Position numbers and translations under genes: made by a program | The notes under the pieces: generated by a model | Told to the model about the DNA's origin: nothing | Seen by the model: the letters and a program-made list of their open reading frames with translations, nothing else | Database searches by the model: none | Source: Pirellulaceae bacterium | GTDB taxonomy: Bacteria; Planctomycetota; Planctomycetia; Pirellulales; Pirellulaceae | DNA length: 12,120 nt | Direction of reading: 5' to 3' | Assembly (NCBI GenBank): GCA_020846515.1 | Contig: JADLDX010000189.1 | Span: 1 to 12,120 of the forward strand | Shown: positions 1-12,120 of the stretch, piece after piece | Numbering within the stretch: the first letter of the stretch is position 1 | How the letters are laid out: each line of letters opens with the position of its first letter

Positions 1-83
1 ATGGGTTAGTCGAGGCACGCCCCCTCCCCGCCCACGCTGCCGCGGGTCGACCCTCCCGCTGCTACGCCGCCGGAGGGGTAGTT
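1..83 (-). repeat. Partial copy (D) of the structured GC-rich repeat, reverse orientation
   Basis: This is the first of two direct tandem partial copies. Positions 4-83 align without gaps to 98-177 with about 7 differences in 80 bases. Read on the minus strand it matches the left half of the 202-bp elements at 6455-6656 and 11877-12078: an aactaaccctcc-like end (here aactacccctcc), a hairpin, then a ggggaggg arm and the start of the core. The terminator-bearing right half is absent. The copy is cut by the window edge. Confidence 0.7.
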
Positions 84-90
84 CGCGCGT

Positions 91-177
91 CATGCGTGGT
101 TAGTCGAGGCCGGCCCCCTCCCCGCCCACGCTGCCGCGGGGCGACCCTCCCACTGCTACGCAGCGGGAGGGTTAGTT
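91..177 (-). repeat. Partial copy (C) of the structured GC-rich repeat, reverse orientation
   Basis: Second tandem partial copy, about 94 bp after the first. It ends in gggagggttagtt, the same terminus as the full elements. The hairpin ccctccc-actgctacgcagc-gggaggg lies at 145-171. On the minus strand the order is terminus, hairpin, ggggaggg arm, then a core stretch resembling the ctaacc..gcatga part of the full elements. The right half with the poly-A/poly-T hairpin is missing. Bases 178-286 hold no other feature I can support; no convincing promoter for the next gene was found there. Confidence 0.72.
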
Positions 178-286
178 TGCTGCTGCTACTACTGCGCAAC
201 ACTCGCCGGTTCAGGCTTGTATTACAATCAGGTGAATGCGGCTAACAGGTGGATAATCCGAACAACTCTTCGATCAACTACTCATC

Positions 287-3739: not shown

Positions 3740-3767
3740 TATGGTCAGCTATAGGTGGCGCCTGTAT

Positions 3768-3788
3768 ACGAATCGCTCCGCGACTCGT
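3768..3788. repeat. 21-nt palindrome (one mismatch) between threonine synthase and the methyltransferase
   Basis: Same family as 2198-2218, with one arm reading acgaatcgc and the other gcgactcgt around the tcc loop, so one pair is mismatched. It sits 27 bases past the end of threonine synthase and about 30 bases before the methyltransferase start, all on the minus strand. It may separate the two transcripts or stabilise a 3' end; this is inference. Confidence 0.8.
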
Positions 3789-3815
3789 CAATACAATCTT
3801 CAGTTCAGATACACA

Positions 3816-5860: not shown

Positions 5861-6415
5861 ATGAAGCAGTCACGCGTGCTGGCACAATGGTTTACGTTCA
5901 CTGCGCTTGCCGCGGGCGGTGCCGCGTTGGATCTGTGGAGCAAAGCGGCGGTGTTTGCATGGCGTGGCACTCCGGGTGTCAGCTTCGAACCTTACTGGCT
6001 GATTGAAGGTTGGGTGGGCATCGAAACGGCGGTCAATGAGGGTGCCCTGTTTGGCATGGGGGCCGGCTTCGGCACCATGTTCGCGGCTCTATCAGTGGCT
6101 GCCGGCTTGGGCATCCTGGTTTGGTTGGCCTGGTTCGGCGCCATTGAAAGTTGGTGGCTGTCGATTGCGCTGGGGTGCATTATGGCCGGCATTTTTGGCA
6201 ATTTGTATGACCGCTTGGGCTTGTGGTGGCAAAGCGATTACCCGCCCGAATGGCGCAGCGGAGTACGAGATTGGATCCTGCTGCGATACAAAACGTACAC
6301 TTGGCCCAACTTCAACGTCGCTGATAGCTTACTGGTCGCCGGCGCTATCATGCTGGCCATCCATTCATTCACCGCGCCCATAGAGCAACCGCCCACCGAA
6401 GGCAGCAAGAACTAA
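5861..6415 (+). CDS. lspA: Lipoprotein signal peptidase (signal peptidase II)
   Basis: Inner-membrane aspartyl protease that cuts the signal peptide from diacylglyceryl-modified prolipoproteins. The 184-residue protein has about four hydrophobic segments (near 8-24, 66-95, 97-115 and 155-170). Conserved family motifs are present: LDLWSK (23-28), VNEGALFG (58-65, the NxGxxFG motif), GNLYDR (113-118) with catalytic Asp117, and FNVADS (151-156) with catalytic Asp155. ATG at 5861 is 7 bases after the upstream stop and gives the normal length; an in-frame ATG at 5822 would overlap the upstream gene. The reading frame ends in aag aac taa, and this TAA (6413-6415) lies inside gaactaaccctcc at 6409-6421, the terminal sequence of the repeat element that follows. 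The last residues and the stop may therefore be repeat-derived. Confidence 0.93.
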   Translation: MKQSRVLAQWFTFTALAAGGAALDLWSKAAVFAWRGTPGVSFEPYWLIEGWVGIETAVNEGALFGMGAGFGTMFAALSVAAGLGILVWLAWFGAIESWWLSIALGCIMAGIFGNLYDRLGLWWQSDYPPEWRSGVRDWILLRYKTYTWPNFNVADSLLVAGAIMLAIHSFTAPIEQPPTEGSKN

Positions 6416-6454
6416 CCCTCCTGCTCGGGAACTAACCCTCCTGCTGCGTAGCGG
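6409..6454 (+). repeat. Two truncated left ends of the 202-bp element in tandem
   Basis: Two partial copies of the element's left end precede the full copy. The first (6409-6428) reads gaactaaccctcctgctcgg. The second (6429-6454) keeps six more bases of the hairpin (gcgtag) before cgg. The full element then starts at 6455 with the complete hairpin. The series looks like stepwise deletions within the hairpin. Confidence 0.8.
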
Positions 6455-6656
6455 GAACTAACCCTCCTGCTGCGTAGCAGCGGGAGGGTCGACTGGCGTC
6501 AGCTCAGTCGGGGAGGGGGCCTCCCGTGCTAACCAAGGCATGAAGCACTTCGCTGCGGGCTCGCCTCTGCGGCGCACGCACCCTCCCCGAAAAAACAGGC
6601 TGCAGTAGCGCCTGTTTTTTCGACCCTCCCGGGCGCTGCGCTGGGAGGGTTAGTTC
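6455..6656 (+). repeat. Full 202-bp structured repeat element, copy A (MITE-like, no coding capacity)
   Basis: The ends are perfect 13-bp inverted repeats, gaactaaccctcc (6455-6467) and ggagggttagttc (6644-6656). Inside, in order, are a left hairpin (ccctcc-tgctgcgtagcagcg-ggaggg), arm cggggaggg (6509-6517), a 63-base core, arm ccctccccg (6581-6589), a terminator-like hairpin (6588-6622) and a right hairpin (ccctccc..gggaggg, 6624-6649). Copy B at 11877-12078 has the same length; over the 207 bases 6451-6657 I count 10 differences, all in the core. There is no ORF, transposase or clear target-site duplication. It fills the gap between convergent lspA and the protease gene and overlaps the 3' end of the protease gene by 7 bases. 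Confidence 0.88.
6588..6622. terminator. Bidirectional intrinsic-terminator-like hairpin in element A
   Basis: A 13-bp perfect stem, cgaaaaaacaggc (6588-6600) and gcctgttttttcg (6610-6622), has a 9-base loop. With A6 on the left and T6 on the right, both strands carry a U-tract, though it is paired with the A-tract. It sits between convergent lspA and the protease gene, so it could end transcription from both sides. The G+C part of the stem is short (about 5 bp), which may make it weak. Confidence 0.65.
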
Positions 6657-7489
6657 TTGGCGCGACGCCGACGGCTATAGCCGATGGCTCCGAAGCCCAA
6701 GCAAGCTAGGGCCAATGAACTTGGTTCGGGAACAACCGAAATCGAAGTGAAGCCGATGTCGCGGAAAGAGGCGACGGTCATATTGCTGATGAACGTGTTC
6801 GGATTCAACCAGCCCGTCATCAACTCGTCACGCAGATCGCGTCCCAAGCCATCGACGATGCCCGTCGGCAGGCCACCTCCGTCCACTTCGTTCCAGTGAC
6901 CGTTGGCAGTCCCTACGCCACCACCCAGCTCAACGTCCGGCGTACCCGACCGCCCAAATTCGGTTTGCCACTGAACCGTAGCATTGGCACCAGTGAACTC
7001 GCCTGAGTTATTTGCATAAACTCCGTTATTGGTCCAGAGCGTTCCAAAGCCGAGCACGTGAGCCATCTCATGTAAAATCACGTTTTCCCATTGACCGCCA
7101 GAAAGCAGACCAGCCACGTCGGCAGAATCGAACCGCATGAGGCCGTTGGTGGCCAGCGTGTAGTTGGCTGCGTCCAAGGCAATGGCTGTAGGGCCGGCCG
7201 AGCCCAACACGTTACCAACCCCATCGATGGCCTCCACATTGGCGGTTATGAATACCGTCGAAACGGTTTGGCCATTGCTGTAGCTGCTGCCAGCGGAGGT
7301 CGACACGACCAATCCATTCTGAAATCCGCCCAGCAAGTTTTGCCAGGTGGATGCTGCGGTCGAGAAGGCCGCGGCATATTGTGGATCACCGGTGTAGTTA
7401 ACGTTGATGATCAATGCCGCTTGCGATACTTGATGACCAAGAAGAATTGCCGCCAGGTATGCGGCGGCAAAGCGAGCTATTTTCAGCAT
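6650..7489 (-). CDS. Secreted PEP-CTERM metzincin metalloprotease, leishmanolysin (M8)-like
   Basis: Predicted secreted zinc protease with a C-terminal sorting signal. Numbering from ATG at 7489 (279 residues): a Sec signal peptide covers about 1-24 (MLKIARFAAAYLAAILLGHQ..SQA). The zinc site HEMAHVLGFG has His140, Glu141 and His144. About 50 residues later, GHW places a third His at 198, and ELMTG puts a Met-turn-like Met at 224, followed by MTVASFRDIGF. This wide spacing to the third ligand is typical of M8-like proteases. The tail is VPEPSSLALACLGFGAIGYS then RRRR, a textbook PEP-CTERM signal with PEP at 254-256, expected to be recognised by the adjacent exosortase. The frame stays open upstream to 7780, but that part is translated palindromic repeat (AESLRDS) and is rejected. 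No Shine-Dalgarno is seen. The stop (6650-6652) lies in the terminal repeat of element A. Confidence 0.87.
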   Translation of the reverse strand: MLKIARFAAAYLAAILLGHQVSQAALIINVNYTGDPQYAAAFSTAASTWQNLLGGFQNGLVVSTSAGSSYSNGQTVSTVFITANVEAIDGVGNVLGSAGPTAIALDAANYTLATNGLMRFDSADVAGLLSGGQWENVILHEMAHVLGFGTLWTNNGVYANNSGEFTGANATVQWQTEFGRSGTPDVELGGGVGTANGHWNEVDGGGLPTGIVDGLGRDLRDELMTGWLNPNTFISNMTVASFRDIGFTSISVVPEPSSLALACLGFGAIGYSRRRRAKN

Positions 7490-7606: not shown

Positions 7607-7795
7607 GGACGAGTCGCATGTGGCCGAATCGCTCCGCGACTCGGTCTTTCTGTAGGCGAATCGCTCCGCGACTCGTCCCATCCCCACCACGGCGTTCCGA
7701 CGGAGCCCCGAGTCGCGGAGCGACTCGGCCACAGAAAGACAGACCGGCAGACAGACCGAGTCGCGGAGCGACTCGGCCACAGGCGGAGCGATTCG
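7607..7795. repeat. Array of 21-nt palindromes between the exosortase and protease genes
   Basis: Four copies lie at 7624-7644, 7656-7676, 7708-7728 and 7756-7776, with half-sites at 7607-7616 and about 7783-7795. The consensus is cgartcgc-tcc-gcgactcg. Copies 1-2 read gctccgc on the + strand and copies 3-4 read gcggagc, so the array is itself inverted. Flanks are shared too: ctcggtctttctgt after copy 1 matches, inverted, the gacagaccgag before copy 4, and ggccaca follows both copies 3 and 4. The array begins 6 bases past the end of the exosortase gene and fills most of the 312-base gap to the protease start. Apart from it, 7490-7606 shows nothing I can support. Confidence 0.88.
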
Positions 7796-7801
7796 TTTAC
7801 A

Positions 7802-10910: not shown

Positions 10911-11843
10911 ATGGTTCACCAGCATCCAAATCTCTTCGTGATTGGTGCACCCAAGTGTGGCACCTCGAGTTTGTATGCGTATCTTCGTCAGCACCCTCAG
11001 GTGTACATGGCGAAACCCAAAGAGCCCAACCATTTTGTCTATTCGAGCGGCAATCCGTATGGTTGGGGCACCTCGCACCCCTATTCGACCTTAGATGCGT
11101 ATCTTTCACTATTTCGAGCCACGGGTGACCAAGGCATCGTAGGCGAGGCATCGACCTGCTACTGCCTGATGCCCCATGTGGCGCGCGCCATTCGCAACCA
11201 TAATCCAGAGGCCAAGCTGATCGCCGTCCTGCGGGATCCCGTGGAACGGGCGTGGAGCATGTATCTGTACTGGCATCAGTTCAATCCCCAGTATCAAAGG
11301 CTAGATCTGGATGATTTTCGCGCGCGTTTCGTCGCGGATGATCTGATGACCGATTTGGAGCGCGGACGATCCACGCGAGTCAAGTGGCTACGTGGGGCCG
11401 GCATGTACTGGGCTAACCTGAGCCATTTTTATAGTGAGTTTCCGGCAGACCAAATTTTCCTGTTGAATTACGATGACTTCGTGCGGCAACCGCAACGGAT
11501 GATGGATCAGTTGTGCGAGTTCCTGGGAGTAAGCTCATACACGTTTGATACGTCTGTCCGCGAGAACACAACGGCCGTGCCTCGCTTTCGTCGGCTGTAT
11601 AACTTTGTCAATCTGAATGTCGAACATCCTTTGCGCCGCGCGCTGAAGAATACATTCGGAAAACTGTTGCCGATGCGAACCTTGCGACTGTCACTCAACC
11701 AAGCTCTGCTGAGCGTTCAGGCGCAGCGCACCTTGCCCGACAGTTTGTACCATGAGCTTGGCGATTTCTATCGCGATGATCTGAAGCGACTGGCCGACCA
11801 TACCGGCTTTCCGGTCCGCCAATGGACGCGGCTCGGGGTCTGA
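10911..11843 (+). CDS. Sulfotransferase domain protein (PAPS-dependent)
   Basis: Predicted to transfer sulfate from 3'-phosphoadenosine-5'-phosphosulfate to a hydroxyl or amine, probably on a carbohydrate, resembling the heparan-sulfate-type Sulfotransfer_1 group. Numbering from ATG at 10911 (310 residues): the 5'-phosphosulfate loop is APKCGTSSL (13-21), KPKEPNHF (35-42) is a typical following motif, and the 3'-phosphate site is LRDPVERAWSMYLYW (107-121) with Arg108 and Ser116. YDDFVRQPQRMMDQLCEFLGV (187-207) is the usual C-terminal family segment. ATG at 10911 has ggggt 6 bases upstream and starts just before the conserved core; GTG at 10851 is the alternative. No membrane segment is evident, so it should be cytoplasmic or membrane-associated. 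Its neighbours gmd and exosortase suggest surface-glycan work. The acceptor is unknown. Confidence 0.88.
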   Translation: MVHQHPNLFVIGAPKCGTSSLYAYLRQHPQVYMAKPKEPNHFVYSSGNPYGWGTSHPYSTLDAYLSLFRATGDQGIVGEASTCYCLMPHVARAIRNHNPEAKLIAVLRDPVERAWSMYLYWHQFNPQYQRLDLDDFRARFVADDLMTDLERGRSTRVKWLRGAGMYWANLSHFYSEFPADQIFLLNYDDFVRQPQRMMDQLCEFLGVSSYTFDTSVRENTTAVPRFRRLYNFVNLNVEHPLRRALKNTFGKLLPMRTLRLSLNQALLSVQAQRTLPDSLYHELGDFYRDDLKRLADHTGFPVRQWTRLGV

Positions 11844-11876
11844 GGGTAGTCTGCTGCTGCTGCTGCGCAGCAGCGG
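11844..11876. repeat. CTG-rich hairpin flanking element B
   Basis: Directly after the sulfotransferase stop, ggtagtctgctgctg leads into the perfect palindrome gctgctgcgcagcagc and then ggg, up to the start of the full element. It resembles a degenerate end hairpin of the same repeat family and parallels the extra partial ends beside copy A. Confidence 0.55.
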
Positions 11877-12078
11877 GAACTAACCCTCCTGCTGCGTAGC
11901 AGCGGGAGGGTCGACTGGCGTCAGCTCAGTCGGGGAGGGTGCCTCCCGTGCTAACCCAAGCATGAAGTACTCCGCTGCGAACTCGTCTGTGCGGCGCACG
12001 CGCCCTCCCCGAAAAAACAGGCTGCAGTAGCGCCTGTTTTTTCGACCCTCCCGGGCGCTGCGCTGGGAGGGTTAGTTC
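11877..12078 (+). repeat. Full 202-bp structured repeat element, copy B
   Basis: Same architecture, orientation and length as 6455-6656: 13-bp terminal inverted repeats (11877-11889 and 12066-12078), left hairpin, cggggaggg and ccctccccg arms, core, terminator-like hairpin and right hairpin. The outer parts are identical to copy A, and all 10 differences lie in the core (11940-12002). It begins 33 bases after the sulfotransferase stop. Confidence 0.88.
12010..12044. terminator. Terminator-like hairpin in element B, downstream of the sulfotransferase
   Basis: Identical to 6588-6622: a 13-bp stem (cgaaaaaacaggc / gcctgttttttcg), a 9-base loop and a T6 run. It is the best candidate for ending the sulfotransferase transcript, about 170 bases after its stop codon. 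Confidence 0.6.
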
Positions 12079-12096
12079 TGCCGCTGCGCGGCAGTG

Positions 12097-12120
12097 GAAC
12101 TAACCCTCCTGCTGCGTAGC
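12097..12120 (+). repeat. Start of a further repeat copy, cut by the window end
   Basis: The sequence gaactaaccctcc followed by tgctgcgtagc is the left end of the 202-bp element again. It is preceded by a small hairpin (gccgctgcgcggc, 12080-12092). Whether it is a full copy or only an end fragment cannot be seen. Confidence 0.75.

Follow-up and report, generated by a model that had tools for sequence, protein, structure and literature searches.

The 3' ends of lspA and of a convergent PEP-CTERM protein gene lie in the two ends of a palindromic repeat of about 205 nt, which is expanded in a single planctomycete lineage, sits at gene 3' ends in a strongly biased reading frame and leaves hardly any native spacer between convergent genes. 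We consider it likely to be a lineage-specific, high-copy, non-autonomous REP/MITE-like palindrome, whose copies would have been kept where the tip closes the reading frame and whose hairpins probably end transcripts. A non-autonomous palindrome with frame-filtered survival at gene ends is, among the accounts weighed below, the least demanding.

The repeat in the window and in its genome

The window, by which we mean the whole 12,120-nt stretch, contains the following features.

5861..6415, + strand: lspA (signal peptidase II), Pfam PF01252 (Peptidase_A8), with its TAA at 6413-6415 inside the left tip
6650..7489, - strand: PEP-CTERM protein gene, Pfam PEP-CTERM plus a borderline Peptidase_M8 match barely above the cut-off
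6409..6454, + strand: left terminus repeated twice more in tandem (6409-6421 and 6429-6441), outside the full unit
6455..6656, no strand: full repeat unit, with terminal inverted repeats at 6455-6467 and 6644-6656
6644..6656, - strand: right terminus GAACTAACCCTCC, containing the stop of the PEP-CTERM (protease) gene at 6650-6652
6588..6622, no strand: hairpin CGAAAAAACAGGC..GCCTGTTTTTTCG, an inverted repeat paired in the fold, with an A-tract on one side and a T-tract on the other
11851..12120, no strand: second copy and the beginning of a third, separated by 7 nt from a gene whose stop is at 11843
2..187, no strand: a pair of short, incomplete units (about 83 nt), arranged in tandem where the contig begins

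From reading its sequence, we take the gene with its stop at 11843 to be sulfotransferase-like. The repeat DNA at 6438-6657 is 93% identical to that at 11860-12079.

As the first-pass annotation had claimed, lspA ends AAG AAC TAA with its stop within GAACTAACCCTCC at 6409-6421, and the PEP-CTERM gene likewise ends AAG AAC TAA with its stop within the opposite GAACTAACCCTCC copy. Its picture of one terminus at each end needs amending on the lspA side, where three tandem copies of the terminus stand (at 6409, 6429 and 6455), although the stop does lie in the outermost copy. We rejected the shared lysine as a signal and regard it as a coincidence, because only the third base (G) of its codon is element DNA, two-thirds being host, and because AAGAACTAACCC occurs just six times genome-wide. 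Among the 23 convergent blocks listed, the block in the window is alone in having AAC TAA at both ends.

The unit is a multi-branched palindrome of about 205 nt, predicted to form one closed fold whichever strand is taken (z -8.9 and -8.7), in which the tips read (G)AACTAACCC inward from both sides, pair with each other and form 13-nt identical terminal inverted repeats of the kind that MITEs have. One branch is an A6..T6 hairpin, and the hairpin at 6588-6622 appears, from its sequence, terminator-like in either direction. The window's own A/T hairpin is absent from the output of a consensus terminator scan, and a perfect A4+..T4+ hairpin is found in only 45 of the 96 blocks of at least 170 nt. 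A few variant tips read GCCTAAC. A search of Rfam 15 returned only four weak microRNA matches, all far under the gathering scores.

In its own draft genome (6.48 Mb, 80.8% complete), GAACTAACCCTCC occurs 239 times and the reversed control not once. With that genome left out of the tallies, single copies occur in 14 of the 395 other genomes of the order and in 2 of 59 other relatives, and the motif was not found in 14 congeners. Weak, diverged relatives of the terminator half are present in three genomes (G027, G020 and G001), and a longer pattern searched among genome contig records, a set from which the own genome is possibly missing, gave no match. As far as sampled, the expansion is specific to the lineage. 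At three loci (L222, L226 and L229) of G027, which represents a different genus in the family, tandem arrays of related structured units occur. Within the own genome, contigs C247 and C254 (loci L060 and L062) carry a near-identical element junction and are possibly assembly variants of one site.

Stop codons, reading frame and C-termini

We analysed 140 stretches of DNA (896 kb, 623 called ORFs), of which 120 were chosen for holding the motif, 18 are contigs outside the motif list and 2 carry Y1 genes; 205 of the 239 motif sites lie inside this DNA and 34 outside. Genes were called with a home-made codon-usage finder, and the edges of repeat blocks were taken from self-BLAST. The proposal that many ORFs would end at the motif if the element donates stops was borne out on these sites, with both sides of the element donating them. 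The 104 gene 3' ends near a block have a median gap of 1 nt, 47 stops overlapping the element and 85 lying within -15..+20, and the 53 gene 5' ends near a block are at a median distance of 91 nt. Internal blocks have a convergent context in 23 of 42 cases, compared with 79 of 484 adjacent gene pairs overall, and no called ORF in the analysed DNA spans a block.

The stops themselves come from the tip in three ways. Among 84 gene ends within -60..+100 of AACTAACCC, 20 are AAC TAA followed by CCC, while 4 are T-AA and 4 are T-GA, stops formed across the junction of gene and tip (hyphen). AAC TAA is the commonest pair of last codon and stop in the analysed DNA, where it closes 31 of the 567 genes that have a stop. 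At least 20 of these 31 endings fall in an element end; two of the 20 genes score below 15 as coding sequence (L145 and L189), and four first cross an outer GCTGC hairpin (L048, L088, L151 and L189).

Of the 31 genes that enter a AACTAACCC end with their frame open up to that point, 28 meet their stop in the first seven bases of the tip. When random insertion was simulated by placing the real unit near element-free stops, the fraction stopping immediately was 0.38-0.40, with a median read-in of 78 nt otherwise; tested against 0.41, the observed count has a binomial p of about 1e-8. The two parts of the sample agree in this bias, with 16 of 18 on contigs up to C442 and 12 of 13 on later ones. 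The remaining three genes (L059, L075 and L160) stop 22 nt after the 9-mer begins; the stop of L059 is the AAC TAA belonging to a second tip. Since the tip carries stops in a frame-dependent manner, the reading frame becomes a readout of how repeats crowd stop codons, and the many copies in one lineage amount to a natural experiment on the takeover of gene ends by repeats.

The orthologues show when these junctions arose. Across 84 orthologous loci (28 LspA, 23 FolP, 4 CstA and 29 M3 peptidase, own loci uncounted and the M3 set mostly non-planctomycete), CTAACCC/GGGTTAG was found at none within 250 nt after the stop, and a lone CCCTCC/GGAGGG at two. With LspA, FolP, CstA and M3 peptidase orthologues free of a 3' element, the junctions arose in this lineage. 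The first-pass suggestion that the element inserted between the genes and rewrote both 3' ends is partly supported, but "rewrote" is too strong, given C-termini that mostly differ by few residues. LspA falls short of 12 of its 13 congener counterparts (median 5 residues, maximum 16) and equals one in length, a further sequence (L104) having been dropped because it runs off its contig; CstA is 2-5 residues shorter than in three congeners, and FolP is a median of 3 residues longer than in 13. The M3 peptidase is 64-71% similar to records from Pirellulaceae, Mariniblastus and Rubripirellula, which on the evidence of this one protein makes the host a planctomycete. In length it matches two of three planctomycete-labelled orthologues and is 2 residues shorter than the third, and the tail of the PEP-CTERM protein is as long as that of its one close relative. 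Pfam domains reach the C-terminal end in the M3 peptidase, FolP, CstA and an epimerase. C-terminal truncation by random insertion is unsupported as a general effect, as the length differences go both ways. For the most part, the effect is that the stop codon and the DNA following it are exchanged.

Accounts of the position at gene ends

REP-like palindromes could crowd stop codons through targeted insertion or through selection. The tip gives an immediate stop as AAC TAA in one frame, as T-GA in the second if the gene contributes T, and as T-AA in the third where the tip's G is T. In the reading we favour, selection is the filter. Copies landing at or just before a native stop would be retained if the tip closed the frame at once, and copies in other frames, which would extend the protein by about 26 codons, would be lost. 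The hairpins, among them an A/T-tract stem that roughly half of the longer copies have, would then probably end the transcript of one neighbouring gene or of both. What counts against this frame-filtered survival is that simple insertion into a convergent pair should keep the native spacer of about 100 nt at one flank of the element, whereas most of it is gone. We also count against it the A4+..T4+ hairpin being limited to 45 of 96 blocks, the Asn endings without an element described below, and the outcome of the searches for a mover and for target duplications. A profile search for Y1_Tnp, the sole transposase type searched, returned two genes, with the motif on neither contig (the match on C334 ends 289 nt from the contig end), and none of the seven testable blocks with both tips exact has a target duplication of at least 4 nt. 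A RAYT as the mover was rejected, as there is no link between the Y1_Tnp genes and the motif. The Y1_Tnp gene on C184 (L201 in G000, around 1336-1692) is flanked by a third palindrome, GCCGGAACAAGCG..CGCTTGTTCCGGC, and its surroundings suggest that it is likely a RAYT with REPs of its own.

Targeted insertion, in which the mobilising machinery picks stop codons or native terminators so that the frame match follows from the target and not from selection, is a possible account, if on the unlikely side. It would explain the very sharp decay of the gap between the same 104 3' ends and their blocks (31 at 1-10 nt, 11 at 11-20 and 5 at 21-60), and it is in line with the C-terminus FPVN of the M3 peptidase, whose last residue is the same as in the Mariniblastus orthologue. 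Additionally, an unrelated palindrome used as a control, CGAGTCGCGGAGCGACTCG with its close variants (25 clusters away from the element), is itself close to stops, lying within -15..+10 of a 3' end in 9 of 24 cases, compared with 74 of 104 for the element. Yet this control overlaps the stop in only 1 of 24 cases compared with 47 of 104, so the overlap tracks the tip sequence, and the 12 bases outside 73 outermost tips have no strong consensus, A merely being scarce at -2 and -3 (8/73 and 7/73, plain counts). Stop proximity is common to repeats in this genome, and frequent stop overlap is a property of the AACTAACCC element.

Another process that would place the element from stop to stop is the replacement of terminators by recombination, with gene conversion, or recombination between neighbouring copies, deleting the native spacer. 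In its favour, the non-element DNA left between convergent genes has a median of 7 nt in the 21 pairs with the element and 101 nt in the 58 pairs without it (p 6e-5). The mosaic units, multiple tips and double-length blocks that occur among the copies also fit. We nevertheless hold recombination to be unlikely, given that 12 co-directional pairs keep a 5'-side spacer of 23-547 nt (4 of them also with large 3' gaps) and that in two species published REPs, too, are described as lying within 20 bp of each of the convergent ORFs (PMC3733652).

We are similarly doubtful of a portable gene-end module, an element directed to stops that would replace the native stop, the 3' spacer and the terminator in one event and in both directions; if it were true, one copy would end the translation and the transcription of two convergent genes.

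That the genes already ended in Asn and a stop, with the repeat merely starting there, is very improbable. The first-pass annotation had held that identical orthologous endings without an element would argue for chance. Among the LspA orthologues listed, none of the 14 congener genes ends AAG AAC TAA, but a distant one does so without the element (L124 in G042, same order, about 43% identity). Asn endings without the element also occur in another LspA (L111) and in a congener FolP (L268), and the Mariniblastus M3 orthologue shares its Asn. Against these stand the low frequency of Asn endings in congeners (0/14 LspA, 1/13 FolP and 0/3 CstA), the share of AAC TAA endings that coincide with the tip, and the excess of immediate stops over the roughly 0.4 expected, and because of these counts chance is refuted unless the gene calls are grossly wrong.

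Integron attC sites overlap the stop codons of cassette genes and have the core consensus RYYYAAC / GTTRRRY. Although the tips of the element, inward ..TAAC and outward GTTA.., hold stops and a few variants read GCCTAAC, an attC-like origin is scarcely credible, as the dominant tip AACTAAC breaks the consensus at its second base and copies lie on dozens of contigs, beside lspA, folP and other genes and several of them between convergent genes.

Relation to described repeats

Short repeats that supply stop codons are already in print as a type of phenomenon. The closest are the GTAG/CGTC-tagged REPs, whose hosts include planctomycetes and which, in the passages of Di Nocera, De Gregorio and Rocco (2013, PMC3733652), are of high copy, intergenic, biased to convergent and unidirectional contexts and equipped with stop-giving termini; GTAG REPs adjoin the 3' ends of both genes in convergent pairs and are said to "often provide" a TAG stop, and those of P. 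entomophila and S. wittichii lie mostly <20 bp from both convergent ORFs. The element shares the high copy number, the intergenic position and the 3'-end and convergent bias. Unlike these REPs, it gives TAA, or a TGA or TAA made at the junction, instead of TAG; its unit has about 205 nt and many branches instead of 20-40 bp; its tips, (G)AACTAACCC, are paired, with no tag or unpaired tetranucleotide at a palindrome end; and no linked RAYT bordered by the repeat was found, the Y1 gene on C184 being bordered by a different palindrome. The same passages carry no frame statistics, and the frame bias was measured here.

Other systems resemble the element in part. REPs of E. coli, described within 15 nt of stops and with reported ribosome stalling (Liang, Rudd and Deutscher 2015, as described in PMC12306157), are likewise palindromes close against stop codons, but that account puts them downstream of the stop, whereas the present element often contains it. 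In the ERIC/RU-1 fusions reported by Delihas (2007, PMC2759123), a MITE at the gene 3' end removes the normal stop and the ORF ends in the repeat, as here; the cases described there are single genes with C-terminal extensions, whereas here many genes stop in the first bases. The TAACTGA repeats of Beggiatoaceae, for which PMC4679880 describes 13 cases of overlap with stop codons, also offer stops in several frames that are tolerated at ORF ends, but in that description they are short, direct, mostly toward start codons and without hairpins.

A prior description of this particular element was not found in open-licence PMC papers. As far as these searches go, the features that are new are the tip sequence with its stop, the large composite unit, the species-limited expansion and the measured frame bias.

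Other repeats in the same DNA also lie at gene ends. The CGAGTCGCGGAGCGACTCG family is represented in the window at 2192-2229, 3762-3799 and 7618-7801, around gene ends and between genes. Besides, AAAAGGGGTCAGGTCT follows or overlaps the stop at four loci (L051, L071, L142 and L192), for example as AAA TAA AAGGGGTCAGGTC, and may be another repeat that supplies or abuts stops.
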